A stretch of DNA of 64,000 nt from an uncultured Prevotella sp. (GCA_947302435.1 CAMYVQ010000002.1:34555-98554); one strand, 5' to 3'; positions 33,489 to 40,181 are shown, numbered from the stretch's first letter. Notes: a model not told the origin generated them from the sequence alone. Made by a program: numbers and translations.

Positions 33489-34106
33489 ATGGACTTTCTG
33501 ACATTCAAGGAACGGTTGTACCCGATGGGGTGTTTCAACATCAATCAGGTGCTGTTATGGGAGAAGAATTTCGACCGTAACAACCTGACGCGATGGTGCC
33601 GTAGAGGGTTGCTGGTGAAGTTGAGGAACCAGTATTATGCCTTTCCAGAGTATCGGCAGGTGCCAGACTTCTCACGTTATGTAGCCAATCGCATCTATGC
33701 CCCTTCGTATATCAGTCTGCATAGTGCCTTGTCGTTCTATGGCATGATACCAGAAGAGGTGGTTCAACTGACGAGTGTGACAACGCTGAAGACCGCCCGT
33801 TTTGAGAACGTCTTTGGAACGTTCCATTATCAGAATGTGAAGACACCGCTCTATTTCGGCTATGAAATCAAGACGATGCAAAGCGGACGAGGTCTGTTGT
33901 TTGCCACCCCAGAGAAGGCGTTACTCGATTTGCTCTACCTGAATCCCTATTATAAGACAGAGCAGGATATGGAGGAATTGCGCCTGGATGAGGATTTTAT
34001 GCAGAACGAACTGAACATAGAACGTTTGAACGACTACCTCTCGAAAATAGAGAGCAAGACGCTGGAACAGAAAGTAAAACGCTTAATGAAGGTTTATGAA
34101 CTATGA
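33489..34106 (+). CDS. Type IV toxin-antitoxin AbiEi-like antitoxin, 205 aa
   Basis: An N-terminal winged helix (FNINQVLLWEKNFDRNNLTR WCRRGLLVKLRNQYY) precedes the AbiEi C-terminal region (IYAPSYISLHSALSFYGMIP; LFATPEKALLDLLYLNPYY). This domain order matches AbiEi-type transcriptional repressors that neutralise AbiEii toxins. Its stop overlaps the next start by 4 bp. Codon use and AT content mark it as the beginning of an accessory island. Binding to its own promoter would be expected. Confidence 0.85.
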   Translation: MDFLTFKERLYPMGCFNINQVLLWEKNFDRNNLTRWCRRGLLVKLRNQYYAFPEYRQVPDFSRYVANRIYAPSYISLHSALSFYGMIPEEVVQLTSVTTLKTARFENVFGTFHYQNVKTPLYFGYEIKTMQSGRGLLFATPEKALLDLLYLNPYYKTEQDMEELRLDEDFMQNELNIERLNDYLSKIESKTLEQKVKRLMKVYEL

Positions 34107-34885
34107 TAGATATTGAATACATACGCAGTTTCTTTCCACCCGCAATAGCCTGCGAAAGCCGCTTCGACCGCTATATGCTGAAGGAGTATCTGCAACTGCT
34201 GATACTCGACCATCTGGCTACGACACCATATATTAATAAGGTGTCATTCATTGGTGGTACGAACCTTCGACTGATTCAGGGAATTGACCGATTCTCTGAG
34301 GATCTGGACTTCGACTGCAAGGATTTGAGTGAATCGGAGTTTATGGCGATGACGGATAGTGTTGTAACCTACTTGCGGCAGAATAATATCAATGTGGAAA
34401 CTCGCGACAAGCCCAATCCGAAACTGACGGCCTTTAGGCGTAATCTCTATTTCCCGGAAATGCTGTTCGACTTGGGACTGACGGGCCATAAGGAAGAACG
34501 TCTTTTGCTAAAAGTTGAAGCACAGGATCAGGGCGTTCCATACCAGCCTGTCGTTGCGAACATCAACAGAATGGGATTCTTCTTTGGTGTTCAGGTGCCG
34601 CCGATAGACGTGCTTTGTGCGATGAAGTTTGCTGCCATCTTGGCCCGTCAGAAAGGGCGTGACTTCTATGATGCCATCTTTCTGTTGTCGAAGACCAAAC
34701 CGAATCTGGATTTCCTGTCTGCCAGAGCAGGCATATCTTCCATTGATGAACTCAAAACATCCATTGCCGAGCGGCTGAAGGATATTGATTTGAACCATAA
34801 GAAGCGTGACTTCTCCCATCTGGTTTTCAATGAACAGAACGCTGAAAGAATCCTACAGTTCCCTGATGTCATAGCAGCACTATGA
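34103..34885 (+). CDS. Type IV toxin-antitoxin AbiEii-like nucleotidyltransferase toxin, 260 aa
   Basis: The nucleotidyltransferase signature FIGGTNLRLIQGIDRFSEDL followed by DFD lies at about residues 50-70, with the Lys-containing LLKVEAQDQG and a helical C-terminal part (CAMKFAAILARQKGRDFYDA). AbiEii toxins use such a fold to inactivate tRNA or another target by nucleotidyl transfer, causing abortive infection. It is translationally coupled to the AbiEi gene. The pair appears intact. Confidence 0.87.
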   Translation: MIDIEYIRSFFPPAIACESRFDRYMLKEYLQLLILDHLATTPYINKVSFIGGTNLRLIQGIDRFSEDLDFDCKDLSESEFMAMTDSVVTYLRQNNINVETRDKPNPKLTAFRRNLYFPEMLFDLGLTGHKEERLLLKVEAQDQGVPYQPVVANINRMGFFFGVQVPPIDVLCAMKFAAILARQKGRDFYDAIFLLSKTKPNLDFLSARAGISSIDELKTSIAERLKDIDLNHKKRDFSHLVFNEQNAERILQFPDVIAAL

Positions 34886-34968
34886 CCAGCCGCAAAGGCA
34901 GTTGGATATTCACTTGGAACAAGGAGGGAAAGAAAATCAGTGTAAAAAGTGCCCCTGACATACAATAA
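34882..34968 (+). CDS. Possible 28-residue mini-protein coupled to the toxin gene
   Basis: An ATG overlaps the toxin stop (ATGA) and opens a short frame, MTSRKGSWIFTWNKEGKK followed by ISVKSAPDIQ. No family is known and it could be chance or the leftover of a larger gene. Confidence 0.2.
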   Translation: MTSRKGSWIFTWNKEGKKISVKSAPDIQ

Positions 34969-35067
34969 ATAAATGAATAGGAGACTTAGGAGAAATACAG
35001 ATATTCATTGATGAGCAGAAAACGCTAAGATAATCAAAACCGTTTACAACATTTGGAATTAGGGACT

Positions 35068-36255
35068 ATGAATATAATGAGAATTGAAAGTCTTCTATCA
35101 GAAATAACCAATCTCTACAAGTTGGCAGAAAAGGATAAACAAGAAAAAATAAAACAAGGAGATTTCTTTAACGTGTTCAATACTATTGAACTACGTACAG
35201 AAGAAGTCAGGTTACATTCTGCTTTCATAGCAGAGTTGTTGAATCCTCATGGTTCTCACGGATTATTCAACCTTTTTCTTCAAGCCTTTCTTAAAAGAAT
35301 GGAATTGCCTTGCGATTATATTACAGAAGCAAAAGGGATTATAAAAGAAAGATATATCGGACGAAAGACAAAAACGGATGGAGGACGTATTGATATTATC
35401 ATTGAAGACGGGAATCATGCTGTCATTATAGAAAACAAGATATATGCAGAGGATCAAGAAAACCAACTTCTACGTTATTACAATTATGGTAGGAAACAAT
35501 TCCCCAAAGGTTTCGAACTTGTCTATTTAACGTTAGAAGGAGTTGAACCTGATGAGAAATCATTAGGAAAAAAGAATCTTCCTTTCAACCGAATGTCATA
35601 TAAGGATAATATTGTAGAATGGCTTGAGGAATGTGTTGTAATTGCCCAAAAGAACCCCTTAGCGCAAGCCGTTATCATGCAATATAGAGAACTTGTTAAA
35701 CAGATAACAAACACTGATATGGACACAAACTATAAAGAGCAACTTCTGGAGACAATGGCAAAGCCTGAAAATGCCATTGCAATGGGTGAAATGTTGGCTG
35801 TTGAAGAAGACTGGTTTTCACGAATTATGGACATCTATATATGGGAACCTCTCAAAGATTATGCAATTTCAAAGAATCTGAAAATAGGAATAGAGATGGA
35901 CTCTGGCGATGAGACTGGTGCTTGGATTTATAAAAAGGAATGGAAACATTATGGTATATTCGTATGGACTGACAGTAAACGTTTTTGGAATGATATGTAC
36001 ATCTGTATCAGTTATTATAACAAACCGAATCGGAGCAATTTAATAACAAAGAAAGAATATCAAAAGTTAGATTGTCTTGTGGAAGAAGCAGAAACAGGAT
36101 GTCCCTATGGATGGGAATACCTACCTGACACTATCCGTAATTGGGGATATTCAATAACGAAGGAGATTGTAACCAAGGAGGTTGTAAACTGTATTATAGA
36201 AAAATTCGATATGATTCTTAATGAGATAGAAGAGAAGAAAATAAAGATGCCATAG
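35068..36255 (+). CDS. PD-(D/E)XK nuclease-like family protein, 395 aa
   Basis: The start ATG at 35068 has a purine-rich upstream stretch; a TTG at 35053 is less likely. The N-terminal part shows a PD-(D/E)XK-like core: LRTEEVRLHSAFIAELLNPH, then TDGGRIDIIIEDGNHAVIIE and NKIYAEDQENQLLRYYNY, in which Asp, Glu and Lys fit the catalytic D-ExK pattern (about residues 107-125). The C-terminal half is unassigned (YICISYYNKP). The family is widespread as isolated genes in bacterial accessory regions. It stands alone between the AbiE pair and a hairpin-led gene cluster. Confidence 0.75.
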   Translation: MNIMRIESLLSEITNLYKLAEKDKQEKIKQGDFFNVFNTIELRTEEVRLHSAFIAELLNPHGSHGLFNLFLQAFLKRMELPCDYITEAKGIIKERYIGRKTKTDGGRIDIIIEDGNHAVIIENKIYAEDQENQLLRYYNYGRKQFPKGFELVYLTLEGVEPDEKSLGKKNLPFNRMSYKDNIVEWLEECVVIAQKNPLAQAVIMQYRELVKQITNTDMDTNYKEQLLETMAKPENAIAMGEMLAVEEDWFSRIMDIYIWEPLKDYAISKNLKIGIEMDSGDETGAWIYKKEWKHYGIFVWTDSKRFWNDMYICISYYNKPNRSNLITKKEYQKLDCLVEEAETGCPYGWEYLPDTIRNWGYSITKEIVTKEVVNCIIEKFDMILNEIEEKKIKMP

Positions 36256-36324
36256 TGATAAAATTGAATATCAATGCCGTTATTCAAAACAACTGTTAAT
36301 CTAGAAAGGTTTTTAGAAGAATTC

Positions 36325-36356
36325 TTTGGTGATTTGATTATTTTTTTGTAATTTTG
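36325..36356 (+). promoter_or_regulatory. Promoter of the small-gene cluster
   Basis: TTTG (36325-36328), 20 nt, TAATTTTG (36349-36356): an exact consensus match. The transcript would begin near 36363, just before the leader hairpin. Confidence 0.7.
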
Positions 36357-36373
36357 CGTAAGACAAAAAGTAT

Positions 36374-36407
36374 ATACGAGGGTACACCTGCGGGGGCACC
36401 CTCGTAT
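36374..36407 (+). promoter_or_regulatory. Leader hairpin with G-rich loop
   Basis: ATACGAGGGT (36374-36383) and ACCCTCGTAT (36398-36407) form a perfect 10-bp stem with a 14-nt loop ACACCTGCGGGGGC. It lies 20 bp before the first ATG and close to the predicted transcript start. No T run follows, so it is not a standard terminator; a structured leader is possible. Confidence 0.5.
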
Positions 36408-36427
36408 TATTGGAATATACCTAAATA

Positions 36428-36715
36428 ATGAAAGATATGAAATTGAAACTATTATTACAGAGAACAAATGCCTATTATGAGGCAAAAGGCATTACTGAAA
36501 CGAAGAACGGTGCTCGATTCAATGCCTTAGACAAGGTTGCGAATTTCATTCGTTCTCTTGCTGGAGAAGGTGATCCTGACATTGACGAGCTAATGGCGGT
36601 TGAAAAGGCCCTTGTCAGGAACGGTTATGAGAAAAAGAAAGGAAAAACGTTAAGTGGAGCTGAAAAGCAAGTGTTTAACGATATATATAAGGTTTATTGT
36701 CAAATAAAGGATTAA
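36428..36715 (+). CDS. Hypothetical protein, 95 aa
   Basis: A small basic, helical protein (LKLLLQRTNAYYEAKGITET; DIDELMAVEKALVRNGYEKK) without recognised domain. It opens the cluster of small genes that follows the hairpin leader, and it ends 4 bp before the next gene. Function unknown. Confidence 0.65.
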   Translation: MKDMKLKLLLQRTNAYYEAKGITETKNGARFNALDKVANFIRSLAGEGDPDIDELMAVEKALVRNGYEKKKGKTLSGAEKQVFNDIYKVYCQIKD

Positions 36716-36719
36716 TAGT

Positions 36720-37061
36720 ATGACGATTGGACATCAAATCTACAATTATCTGTATGACTATACAGACTCAGGAACCATTACTCACTCAGATGGGATAGTA
36801 CTTTCTGATTCTGATTACTGCATTATGGGGGCTTATATAAACTTCGATGAGAAACAAGTTTATGTGGTTTTGGAAGACCATAATCATAATGTGGTTAACA
36901 TAACAATCCACCAGTTTATCTGTCAGATGGGAGGGTCAAACTTAAATAGTTATAAGCCTTTGTACAAACTTAGAGATGCATTTAAGATTTATGCTAAACA
37001 ACAAAGAAAGAAGTACAAGCAATTACGTAAACAGTTTAATACTAAAGAACATGAAGGGTAA
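36720..37061 (+). CDS. Hypothetical protein, 113 aa
   Basis: No family is recognised. The middle is beta-rich (YCIMGAYINFDEKQVYVVLE) and the C-terminus is strongly basic (QQRKKYKQLRKQF), which could contact nucleic acid. Its 3' end overlaps the start of the glycosylase-fold gene by 11 bp, indicating co-translation. Confidence 0.62.
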   Translation: MTIGHQIYNYLYDYTDSGTITHSDGIVLSDSDYCIMGAYINFDEKQVYVVLEDHNHNVVNITIHQFICQMGGSNLNSYKPLYKLRDAFKIYAKQQRKKYKQLRKQFNTKEHEG

Positions 37062-37827
37062 AAATGTATTTAGCAAGAAAGAGATTGAGTTGATAGAATC
37101 ACTTATCATCAAAAGGTGTAAAGAAGAAAAAGCCCAGCAAAAGACTATTCGCAGTAAAATGCGTGATTTGGGGTTTTATGGTAGCGACTTTGGAATTTCA
37201 GATATGACAATTGATAAATTCCATAGGTTGATAGATAATGGTGAGATACAAATCTCTGATGGCAAACGTTTGGTCAATCAGAGCGCTGTTGTTGTCGAAA
37301 AAATGGCGCTACCTTTGGGTCGTAAACAGATGAGAACTGGATTACAAGCGTGGTTTGGAGAGAATCCCAAAGTACTCATACTTGGGACGTTCCCTGGTGA
37401 AAAGTCATTAGCTGCACAAGCGTATTATCAGAACAAGTCACACAATTCTTTCTTTAAGATAATGGAAAACTTGTTTGAAAGGCCTATGGGTATGTCGGAC
37501 AAAGAGTTCATTACAAGTAATCGGATTGCGCTTTGGGACTGCATGAAAGAGGCAGACAGGGAAGGGAGTCTTGATACAAATATCCAGGGATATGCGCCCA
37601 ACGATATTGATGGCTTTTTGGTGGCTCATCCGTCGATATCTGCAATCATTTTGAACGGAACTGGTGAGACAACAAAAGTATTTGAACAAAACTTTTCTGC
37701 AGACAGTTTGAAATGGAATTGCAAGATTATATCGCTTCCTTCAACATCAAATTCGCTGGGTAAACCTTTTGAAGAGAAACTGCAATTGTGGAAAGTTGTT
37801 AAAGAAATTGTAGAAAGTAAATTCTAA
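37051..37827 (+). CDS. HTH-fused DNA-deoxyinosine glycosylase (uracil-DNA-glycosylase superfamily), 258 aa
   Basis: The C-terminal domain carries the hypoxanthine-DNA glycosylase pattern: ILGTFPGEKSLAAQAYYQNK with HNSFFKIM (about 110-140), ALWDCMKEADREGSLDTNIQ, and AIILNGTGETTKVFEQNF. This family excises deaminated adenine (hypoxanthine) from DNA. The first 75 residues (FSKKEIELIESLIIKRCKEE, QKTIRSKMRDLGFYGSDFGI) form a separate helical module seen in front of restriction or repair domains. The start at ATG 37051 overlaps the upstream gene. The fusion and location suggest a DNA-modification or defence role, which is inference. Confidence 0.78.
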   Translation: MKGKNVFSKKEIELIESLIIKRCKEEKAQQKTIRSKMRDLGFYGSDFGISDMTIDKFHRLIDNGEIQISDGKRLVNQSAVVVEKMALPLGRKQMRTGLQAWFGENPKVLILGTFPGEKSLAAQAYYQNKSHNSFFKIMENLFERPMGMSDKEFITSNRIALWDCMKEADREGSLDTNIQGYAPNDIDGFLVAHPSISAIILNGTGETTKVFEQNFSADSLKWNCKIISLPSTSNSLGKPFEEKLQLWKVVKEIVESKF

Positions 37828-37841
37828 AAAGTAAAAAGAAT

Positions 37842-38108
37842 ATGAAAGAAGCTAAAATTAAAAAGATAAACCAAGTATTAGCCGATTACTTTGAGAAGAA
37901 CAAACACGTCAAGCGTATTCGTGCATTGGATATGATGGAATATTTCATAGATGCAGGGATTTTTAATAAGGACTATAAGAGGTCAGGATTGCCCATACGC
38001 AATGTGCTAAGAGAACTTGACGATAAGAATCAACTCGACTTGATTCCGTATGTCGTAGTTGAAAGAAAGGACAAGAACAGAAATTGGTTCTTTGAGCCAT
38101 TGAAATAG
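37842..38108 (+). CDS. Hypothetical small protein, 88 aa
   Basis: It is helical, basic and winged-helix-like (ALDMMEYFIDAGIFNKDYKR, GLPIRNVLRELDDKNQLDLI, then VVERKDKNRNWFF). A small DNA-binding protein is possible. It is 14 bp after the glycosylase-fold gene and 6 bp before the next gene. Confidence 0.62.
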   Translation: MKEAKIKKINQVLADYFEKNKHVKRIRALDMMEYFIDAGIFNKDYKRSGLPIRNVLRELDDKNQLDLIPYVVVERKDKNRNWFFEPLK

Positions 38109-38114
38109 AAAGTA

Positions 38115-38675
38115 ATGCAAAGTTTTTCCAAGAAAGAAGTCGCTATCATTGTCCTCTTCTTTGTCCTCTATATGATTGGCTACGCTTGGCTGATTGAACC
38201 TAAACAAGAGACAGTAAAAAAGATAGAGAAGAATGCAATGATTCAAAAACCGGAAAGGCGGCAGACGGAGAAACGGCAAATCAAATCCCTGTCTGCTGAC
38301 TGGCCATTGGACTTAGGCAAGTACTTCTATACCATTGACATTGCTCCTGGTTATGAAATGGAAGATGAAGAATATGAGGTGATAGGAGAATCTGGAGGAA
38401 ATCTGATTGTGAGGAAGCACAACGACTGGCCTGACATCAGCGGACACTTTGAATGGTACTGTAATGAGAAACTGACAACGACTCAACAGATGTTTGACTA
38501 TGTGGTGGCTCACCAAAAAGCTATCGTTAAGCAAATGCAAGAAGTAAGAAAGCACGGCATCAGTCGTCAATTTGACGAAGCCTCATATTATCAAGACCAT
38601 TATGATGAATATCAGGATGATCCAGAAGATGAAATCCGTTTCCCACCAGAGATATTCGATGCCAATGATGATTAA
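38115..38675 (+). CDS. Hypothetical single-pass membrane protein, 186 aa
   Basis: An N-terminal helix (EVAIIVLFFVLYMIGYAWLI) probably anchors it in the membrane, with the rest outside or in the periplasm. The C-terminal tail is very acidic (YDEYQDDPEDEIRFPPE). No domain is recognised. It closes the run of small genes. Confidence 0.65.
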   Translation: MQSFSKKEVAIIVLFFVLYMIGYAWLIEPKQETVKKIEKNAMIQKPERRQTEKRQIKSLSADWPLDLGKYFYTIDIAPGYEMEDEEYEVIGESGGNLIVRKHNDWPDISGHFEWYCNEKLTTTQQMFDYVVAHQKAIVKQMQEVRKHGISRQFDEASYYQDHYDEYQDDPEDEIRFPPEIFDANDD

Positions 38676-38753
38676 TGATAAAAAGCAAAAAATGATAGAA
38701 ACTAACGTTATACAGAACAAAATCATTAACTTTGCAAACTAAAGATTTGAGAT

Positions 38754-40181
38754 ATGAGCAAGATCAAACCAAAAGAGTGCCAGAATGTTGAGTTTAAGAG
38801 CAGCTGGCAAGATGAATATCTAAAGTGGATTTGCGGGTTCGCGAATGCACAAGGTGCTGTGATGTATTTTGGCGTGAATGATGACTACGAGGTGGTAGGA
38901 TTAAAAAATACGAAGAAATTGCTGGAGGACATACCCAACAAGATTGTGAACTTCATGGGGCTGGTTGTGGATGTGAACCTCTACGAACAAGAGGGTCTGG
39001 AATATATAGAGGTGGTGATTGAGCCGAGCAATGTGCCTATCAGCTTCAAAGGGAAGTATTATTACCGTTCTGGCAGTACCATGCAGGAGCTGAACGGTGT
39101 CGCATTACAAAAATTCGTTTTGAAGAAGATGGGGCGTACATGGGATGACATTCCTAATGACTTTGCCACCGTAAAAGACTTGGATCGTCAGGCTATCAAG
39201 TTCTTCCTTGACAACGGCATAGAGGCAGGACGTATTGATAAGAGTGAGGCAAGGGCTTCTACGCAGAGAGTCATCGAGAACTTAGGACTTTTCACAGAAG
39301 ATGGCAAGTTGAAGAATGCTGCATTGTTGCTGTTTGCTAAGAATCCACGAAAATACTTTACTTGCGTGGAGTTCAAAATCGGTCGTTTCAGGCACGATGA
39401 GTCTGACTTGATAATCCAAGACGTGATAGAGGGTAACATCATCCAGATGACGGATCGTGTGGTGAAAGTACTGAAAGCAAAATATCTGACATCTCCTATT
39501 CATTATGAGGAAATGAAACGAAAAGAGCCATTGGAAGTGCCTGAGGATGCATTGCGTGAGATACTCTATAATTCGATAGCTCATAAGGATTATAGTGGTG
39601 CTCCTATCCAGATGCGAGTATGGGATGACTACGTGGAAATCTGGAACGAGGGCGAATTGCCAATGGGACTGACCCCTGAGGCCTTATTGAAGAAGCATTC
39701 TTCTCATCCTCGCAATAAGAACATCGCCAATGCATTCTTCAAGGCAGGCTTTATTGAGTCTTGGGGACGAGGTTACGAAAAGATTCGCAACGGTTTTGAA
39801 AGCGTTGGCCTGCCCATGCCGATAATTGAGGTTGTAGAAGGTGGCGTAAGGGTGACGTTTCAGAGAAAAAATGTAGGCAACTCTGTATCATTCTTTGCTA
39901 AGGGACAAACTGATTCTGAGAATACACAAGTCGATACTACCCAGAAAACTACCCAGAAAACTACCCAGAAAACTACCCAGAAAACTACCCAGGCGATTAT
40001 AGAGTTAATTCGTCAAAACCCTCATATAACAAGAAAAGAGTTGGCTGAAAAATGTAGAATAACGGTTGATGGTGTTAAGTGGCAACTACAAAAGATGCAG
40101 GAAAGGAATCTAATTCGTCGTGTAGGTGCTGATAATGGTGGATACTGGGAAATTATTATTAATGAAACGAAATTCTCGTAA
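38754..40181 (+). CDS. AlbA_2/RecG-like ATP-binding regulator with C-terminal winged helix, 475 aa
   Basis: It has the N-terminal Schlafen AlbA_2 domain (QNVEFKSSWQDEYLKWICGF ANAQGAVMYFGV), the HATPase_c_4 region (ALREILYNSIAHKDYSGAPI; FIESWGRGYEKI) and a C-terminal wHTH (PHITRKELAEKCRITVDGVK). Between them lies a Thr-Gln-Lys linker from a 12-bp tandem repeat. These proteins are common in accessory DNA and are usually annotated as putative DNA-binding or RecG-like; their biology is poorly known. It has its own -7 element (TAACTTTG, 38727-38734). Confidence 0.85.
   Translation: MSKIKPKECQNVEFKSSWQDEYLKWICGFANAQGAVMYFGVNDDYEVVGLKNTKKLLEDIPNKIVNFMGLVVDVNLYEQEGLEYIEVVIEPSNVPISFKGKYYYRSGSTMQELNGVALQKFVLKKMGRTWDDIPNDFATVKDLDRQAIKFFLDNGIEAGRIDKSEARASTQRVIENLGLFTEDGKLKNAALLLFAKNPRKYFTCVEFKIGRFRHDESDLIIQDVIEGNIIQMTDRVVKVLKAKYLTSPIHYEEMKRKEPLEVPEDALREILYNSIAHKDYSGAPIQMRVWDDYVEIWNEGELPMGLTPEALLKKHSSHPRNKNIANAFFKAGFIESWGRGYEKIRNGFESVGLPMPIIEVVEGGVRVTFQRKNVGNSVSFFAKGQTDSENTQVDTTQKTTQKTTQKTTQKTTQAIIELIRQNPHITRKELAEKCRITVDGVKWQLQKMQERNLIRRVGADNGGYWEIIINETKFS
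39936..39992 (+). repeat. 12-bp in-frame tandem repeat (TTQK)n
   Basis: ACTACCCAGAAA is repeated four times at 39936, 39948, 39960 and 39972 and then partially. It encodes repeated Thr-Thr-Gln-Lys and, being a multiple of three, can change length without shifting the frame. Confidence 0.95.

Follow-up and report, generated by a model that had tools for sequence, protein, structure and literature searches.

Our analysis of a 64,000-nt stretch of DNA from an uncultured Prevotella sp. (GCA_947302435.1 CAMYVQ010000002.1:34555-98554; hereafter the window) indicates that five small genes at 36325-38675 are parts of a combinatorial kit in Prevotella and not a fixed operon. As judged from sequence, the core that recurs among relatives is a DNA enzyme together with ORF5, a small protein with a predicted membrane segment and an acidic tail, and this core is accompanied by interchangeable modules. 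We favour, at about even weight for and against, the reading of a modular, membrane-associated Prevotella cassette that would attack foreign or marked DNA.

Gene layout, leader and genomic setting

The source genome comprises 2.6 Mb in 97 contigs, and the relatives compared here are Prevotellaceae. The sample comprised 200-378 genomes from the genus and 301 from the family, many of them incomplete and often with flanks of no more than 1.5 kb; each protein was searched in it separately, and the neighbouring genes were then read. A preceding sequence-only reading had described a promoter and a hairpin leading a compact unit of five close or overlapping genes. The spacings from ORF1 to ORF5 (4, -11, 14 and 6 nt) agree with this description, and such tight spacing and overlap make a single transcription unit likely. 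The ORF3 start used here (MKGKNVF) is the one common to the relatives; an alternative upstream start lies at 36976. In Pfam, ORF1, ORF2, ORF4 and ORF5 are without a match above the curated cut-off, and in PADLOC (2023 release) ORF1-5 match none of the families at E 0.1.

Table 1. Positions of features in the window (plain coordinates) and in related loci (coordinates preceded by a locus number)
Feature	Position	Strand	Remarks
AbiEi/AbiEii toxin-antitoxin pair	33489-34885		upstream of cassette; Pfam/PADLOC
PDC-S26 nuclease (PDDEXK_4)	35053-36255		directly upstream of cassette; PADLOC candidate single-gene defence nuclease
Bacteroidetes-type promoter TTTG-N20-TAATTTTG	36325-36356	+	pattern scan
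Leader hairpin	arms 36374-36388 / 36393-36407	+	15-nt arms, 87% complementary
ORF1	36428-36715	+	95 aa; no assigned domain
ORF2	36720-37061	+	113 aa; no assigned domain
ORF3	37051-37827	+	258 aa; N-module + family-6 DNA-deoxyinosine glycosylase
ORF4	37842-38108	+	88 aa; predicted winged helix
ORF5	38115-38675	+	186 aa; predicted one-pass membrane protein, acidic tail
AlbA_2 / HATPase_c_4 / HTH_24 gene	38754-40181		downstream of cassette
'MGRNKFSQ...' protein	L063-L082, e.g. L063:1498-1866, L072:1498-1806
VSR-like nuclease	L046:1018-1452, L049:982-1398, L052:993-1421, L062:1009-1410, L035:1047-1511, L094:1066-1470
'KVLWMNNGDE...' gene	L088:35-895, L089:2564-3481, L094:210-1070, L035:55-999

The Bacteroidetes promoter consensus is TTTG / TAnnTTTG, and a matching promoter and the hairpin are indeed both present ahead of the genes. 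For the leader (36362-36430) the folding energy is -20.3 kcal/mol (z = -3.5), and none of 200 shuffles was equally good; the hairpin is strong but not extreme, since 15 of 400 random 50-mers from the window fold equally well or better. Its sequence is single-copy in the genome and has no match in Rfam. It was rejected as a defining element of the cassette because it recurs identically only in L019 (in a 95%-identical block), is absent from L020, whose leader differs, and is shared by none of 14 other cassette leaders. In L020, G-rich direct repeats (TGGGGACAnAnC, then AGGGACGTAAC) occupy the leader (L020:2324-2372) in place of the window hairpin.

The interval that holds the cassette is bounded by tex (end 31664) and sppA (from 40296); in the relative G305 (L106) the gap between these two genes is ~1.1 kb. 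Domain and PADLOC scans found no partner DNA methyltransferase among the genes at 33489-40181. The downstream AlbA_2 gene was set aside as a cassette member because similarity to both L019 and L020 ends just after ORF5; an AlbA_2-type gene immediately before ORF5 in L091 is a point in favour of its membership. The protein encoded at 38754-40181 also carries an in-frame TTQK repeat run at about residues 391-409. Defence genes lie near relatives as well: PDC-S02 nucleases in L020 and L035, PDC-S01 in L021, AbiL- and AbiD-like genes in L025, and an AAA + NsnA-type pair in L023.

The glycosylase and its modules

Residues ~100-250 of ORF3 score 105 bits against TIGR04274 (DNA-deoxyinosine glycosylase; curated cut-off 80) and just over the cut-off against PF03167 (UDG), which bears out the hypoxanthine-DNA-glycosylase-type domain noticed earlier; all nine related glycosylases taken from other loci likewise clear the TIGR04274 cut-off. 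Sequence comparison gave a single credible solved relative, 2l3f (E 4e-13). In an alignment that includes 2l3f and a canonical standalone member, N132 and 16 other columns are invariant, G112, P115, Y125, Y126, W162, D163, N202 and G203 among them; the Asn of 2l3f that pairs with N132 is presumably the catalytic Asn of the Methanosarcina barkeri enzyme. An inactive pocket had been named as grounds for giving up the sequence-only reading; in this alignment the conserved pocket residues, N132 included, are kept. The motif-1 Asp/Asn and motif-2 His missing in ORF3 do not signify inactivation, because UDG family 6 naturally lacks both of these residues of other UDG families (PMC5387724). The structure model of ORF3, built like that of ORF4 from a shallow alignment, is mediocre (pLDDT 70), and a fold search with it was uninformative, with UdgX and SMUG1 among the weak matches.

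The N-terminal part of ORF3 (about residues 1-75; N-module) had been read as a helical module fused to the glycosylase. The fusion is real, but the module is portable and is also found on nucleases: L013 joins it to GIY-YIG_2 (E 6e-36) and L062 joins it to a VSR-like nuclease, and as a small gene of its own it neighbours a glycosylase gene in L018 and a GIY-YIG-like gene in L060. It was detected in 60 of the 301 family genomes, mostly as a small 'MGRNKFSQ...' protein, and a PDB profile search with it returned no credible relative. The 'MGRNKFSQ...' protein is conserved, some 100-150 aa long and mostly single-copy in a genome, and is distantly related to the ORF3 N-module. The glycosylase was found in 15 of the 301 genomes, and the module-glycosylase genes of L005, L006 and L023 have no ORF5 alongside.

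These data bear on accessory DNA repair, in which a horizontally spread base-excision cassette would rid the host chromosome of hypoxanthine (deaminated adenine), and ORF4 and the N-module would assist DNA binding in a general way. In its favour, TIGR04274 takes its name from deoxyinosine repair, and some glycosylase copies stand alone. Against it speak the sporadic distribution of the glycosylase and the defence-gene neighbours, which would be unusual for repair, as would the exchange with GIY-YIG and VSR-like nucleases next to a constant membrane partner (see below). We regard repair as rather unlikely.

For ORF4, an AlphaFold2 model (H-H-H-E-E, pLDDT 88) agrees with the predicted small winged-helix-like protein. 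Foldseek gave no significant PDB match to this model; many of the weak matches are winged helices, and DpnI is absent among those listed, although the topology of ORF4 fits a winged helix. A PDB profile search with ORF4 likewise gave no credible relative. In the window, L019 and L020 ORF4 is a separate gene between the enzyme and ORF5. Elsewhere the module forms a fusion with a DNA enzyme. L046 and L049 join it to a VSR-like nuclease, and in L090 an ORF4-type domain (53% identical) is in frame with the glycosylase in a gene that overlaps ORF5. In L047 the module lies beside a GIY-YIG-like gene. ORF1 homologues adjoin genes for a glycosylase (L005), a VSR-like nuclease (L052) and GIY-YIG_2 (L053), so that the ORF3 N-module, ORF1 and ORF4 are each shared among the glycosylase, GIY-YIG and VSR-like enzyme types. 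ORF2 was seen solely ahead of module-glycosylase genes, in L019, L020 and L022, with a remnant in L021.

ORF5, its partner enzymes and the exchange of parts

ORF5 carries one N-terminal hydrophobic segment, in keeping with the membrane protein that had been placed in the unit, and a conserved acidic tail (net -12 over 37 residues). Fifteen ORF5 genes were read, each intact or nearly complete; every one is adjacent to a gene for a DNA-processing enzyme, separated from it by one gene, or fused with it. This partner is a family-6 glycosylase in seven loci (the window, L019, L020, L022, L088, L090 and L039, where the glycosylase is decayed), a GIY-YIG enzyme in five (L034, L036, L037, L038 and L089), a VSR/PvuRts1I-like nuclease in two (L035 and L094) and an AlbA_2-type gene in one (L091, where ORF5 has a stop codon). 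Judged from the rarity of the glycosylase alone among the family genomes, adjacency by chance is very unlikely. In L094, a VSR-like nuclease, a hydrophobic segment and an ORF5-type tail form one chain.

In Prevotella ruminicola KHT3 (L022:6779-7096) the middle of ORF5 has been lost in frame, and the membrane segment and acidic tail are kept. This retention suggests that the segment and the tail are the important parts of the protein.

A toxin-type or abortive-infection system would give the tail another role: a triggered enzyme would damage the host chromosome, and ORF5 (acidic, DNA-mimic-like) or another small protein would keep the enzyme inactive until then. The conservation of the tail, its retention in L022, the exchangeable catalytic domains and the AbiE toxin-antitoxin genes nearby are all compatible with such a system. 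A dedicated antitoxin, however, usually changes with its toxin; ORF5, by contrast, keeps 63-87% identity next to unrelated partner enzymes, and the single chain of L094, with nuclease and ORF5-type tail together, also argues against it. We consider this explanation unlikely.

The partner enzymes were assigned in different ways. GIY-YIG calls come from Pfam for L013 and L036 and from sequence similarity to L036 for L037 and L038; those for L034, L047 and L089 rest on sequence motifs, because their Pfam scores are below the cut-off. The GIY-YIG partners, like the ~300-aa gene upstream of several enzymes (below), had no PADLOC match at E 0.01. The PD-(D/E)XK/VSR-like nuclease family has no Pfam model of its own and is weakly similar to the PvuRts1I N-terminal domain; a PDB profile search with the VSR-like domain found no credible relative. 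A gene of ~300 aa ('KVLWMNNGDE...') or a relative of it precedes the enzyme in several ORF5 cassettes. Its protein is receiver-like in appearance, with the phospho-acceptor Asp apparently replaced, and has no match in Pfam or PADLOC. In other cassettes (L005, L038, L047, L052 and L053) a WYL-type regulator lies upstream (Pfam-tested for L053).

Five fixed genes as the unit were rejected, since all five stand together only in the window and in one relative (L019, genome G331; 86-99% protein identity). L020 (G306) carries ORF2-5, in L021 (G301) ORF3 is accompanied by remnants of ORF2 and ORF4, and L022 has ORF2, ORF3 and the shortened ORF5; the four cassettes lie in different genomic contexts. 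The expected co-occurrence thus survives in part: relatives have a neighbourhood in common, but the five genes are not a fixed set. Homologues scattered without any common neighbourhood, which would have counted against the earlier reading, are not what was found, as L019, L020 and L022 retain linked genes.

Could the genes simply have gathered by chance in a variable island? The restriction of the full set to two loci and the occurrence of ORF1, ORF4 and ORF5 each without the others would allow it. The fusions in L090 and L094, the 15 of 15 ORF5 genes near a DNA enzyme and the overlaps conserved at different genomic sites contradict it, the fusions doing so for ORF3, ORF4 and ORF5 only and not for ORF2; we hold a chance gathering to be highly improbable.

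The window and L019 are similar at the DNA level from a point within the upstream nuclease gene up to 5 nt beyond the ORF5 stop; with L020 the similarity begins shortly ahead of ORF2 and ends 4 nt beyond that stop. Shared DNA that ends just past ORF5 at different sites indicates that genomes exchange a block whose last gene is ORF5. Compared with L019, ORF3 is 99% identical and ORF4 and ORF5 are 86-87% identical, suggesting mosaic exchange within this block.

The combination of a GIY-YIG or VSR-like fold with small DNA-binding modules is characteristic of homing endonucleases. Self-spreading, homing-endonuclease-like genes as the source of the DNA-binding modules and the GIY-YIG and VSR-like domains would account for this make-up and for the mosaic exchange of blocks. 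A glycosylase is not known as a homing enzyme, and the different genomic sites, the defence neighbours and the conserved membrane partner do not fit either; we give a homing-like or selfish element very little credit.

Phage or plasmid origin was rejected, since no phage-borne counterpart was seen. Profiles of the N-module, ORF4 and ORF3 found no match in viral contigs, nor did ORF5 in phage and plasmid records. Four 'phage' matches to the glycosylase are unannotated faecal contigs; the one examined (L128) carries a canonical standalone glycosylase beside ordinary bacterial-type genes.

Proposed mode of action and known systems

In the favoured reading of a membrane-associated cassette, reader modules (the ORF3 N-module, winged-helix ORF4 and possibly ORF1) would recognise marked or foreign DNA and bring the catalytic domain to it. 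The family-6 glycosylase would then remove a non-canonical, probably purine-type, base, and the resulting abasic site would become a break via AP endonucleases or replication. ORF5 may either tether the enzyme at the inner membrane, the entry point of phage or conjugative DNA, or restrain it through its DNA-like acidic tail. Since relatives combine this membrane partner and these modules with GIY-YIG or PvuRts1I/VSR-like nucleases, the constant parts would serve targeting and control, with the enzyme exchangeable. Such an arrangement is reminiscent of restriction and effector systems that retain their recognition and control parts and vary the enzyme. AbiE and PDC-S26 in the window, and the defence genes often near relatives, support a defence role. 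Points against it are that the closest annotated activity of ORF3, hypoxanthine removal, is a repair function, that PADLOC matches none of ORF1-5, that ORF4 had no significant Foldseek match, that some module-glycosylase genes lack ORF5 and that phage-borne counterparts were not seen.

A more specific form, which we put forward tentatively as possible yet doubtful, is a new membrane-anchored DNA-attack system of Prevotellaceae with ORF5 and readers constant and the enzyme a glycosylase, a GIY-YIG, a PvuRts1I/VSR-like or possibly an AlbA_2 protein. In its glycosylase version the winged helix would direct the family-6 enzyme to a modified purine (e.g. N6-methyladenine) in incoming DNA.

Base excision as a weapon against phage DNA has been established only recently (Brig1, Brig3), and in the present kit, which two nuclease families share, a glycosylase from a repair family appears to be one of the exchangeable parts. 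If true, the range of known restriction glycosylases would widen and a winged-helix reader may direct base excision; ORF5, absent from the defence catalogue searched (PADLOC), could serve as a query for finding an overlooked system in a genus prominent in gut and rumen. The sequence-only reading knew of no described system of this make-up, and neither PADLOC 2023 nor the openly licensed literature yielded a match or an earlier description of such a cassette.

Several known systems resemble single parts of it. PabI (PMC10273834) shares base excision as a means of restriction, but has a HALFPIPE fold and a partner methyltransferase, whereas ORF3 is of the UDG superfamily and has no methyltransferase among the genes at 33489-40181. 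The PvuRts1I family has an N-terminal nuclease domain weakly similar to the VSR-like enzyme found in relatives in place of the glycosylase; the match is below the Pfam cut-off (E 0.004-0.08), and no SRA-like reader was seen. The family-6 hypoxanthine-DNA glycosylase of M. barkeri belongs to the same curated family and has the same conserved pocket residues, but the canonical enzyme of this type is a standalone protein of ~160 aa, whereas ORF3 is fused and part of a multigene cassette. Brig1 and Brig3 are UDG-superfamily glycosylases that excise modified bases and protect against T-even phages (PMC11078745, PMC13160076). By analogy drawn from superfamily and setting, ORF3 is a comparable glycosylase among defence genes and would probably act via abasic sites; it differs in belonging to family 6 (TIGR04274), in its extra N-module, in its winged-helix and membrane partners and in a catalytic slot shared with nucleases. 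Winged helices fused to PD-(D/E)XK, GIY-YIG and other nucleases form N6-methyladenine-dependent type IV restriction enzymes (PMC11037411), and their combinatorial pairing (PD-(D/E)XK-wH, e.g. DpnI, and wH-GIY-YIG) is like that in the cassette relatives. The text of that description contains no membrane protein and no Prevotella case, and in contrast to those enzymes the cassette also pairs the winged helix with a glycosylase and adds the ORF3 N-module and ORF5.
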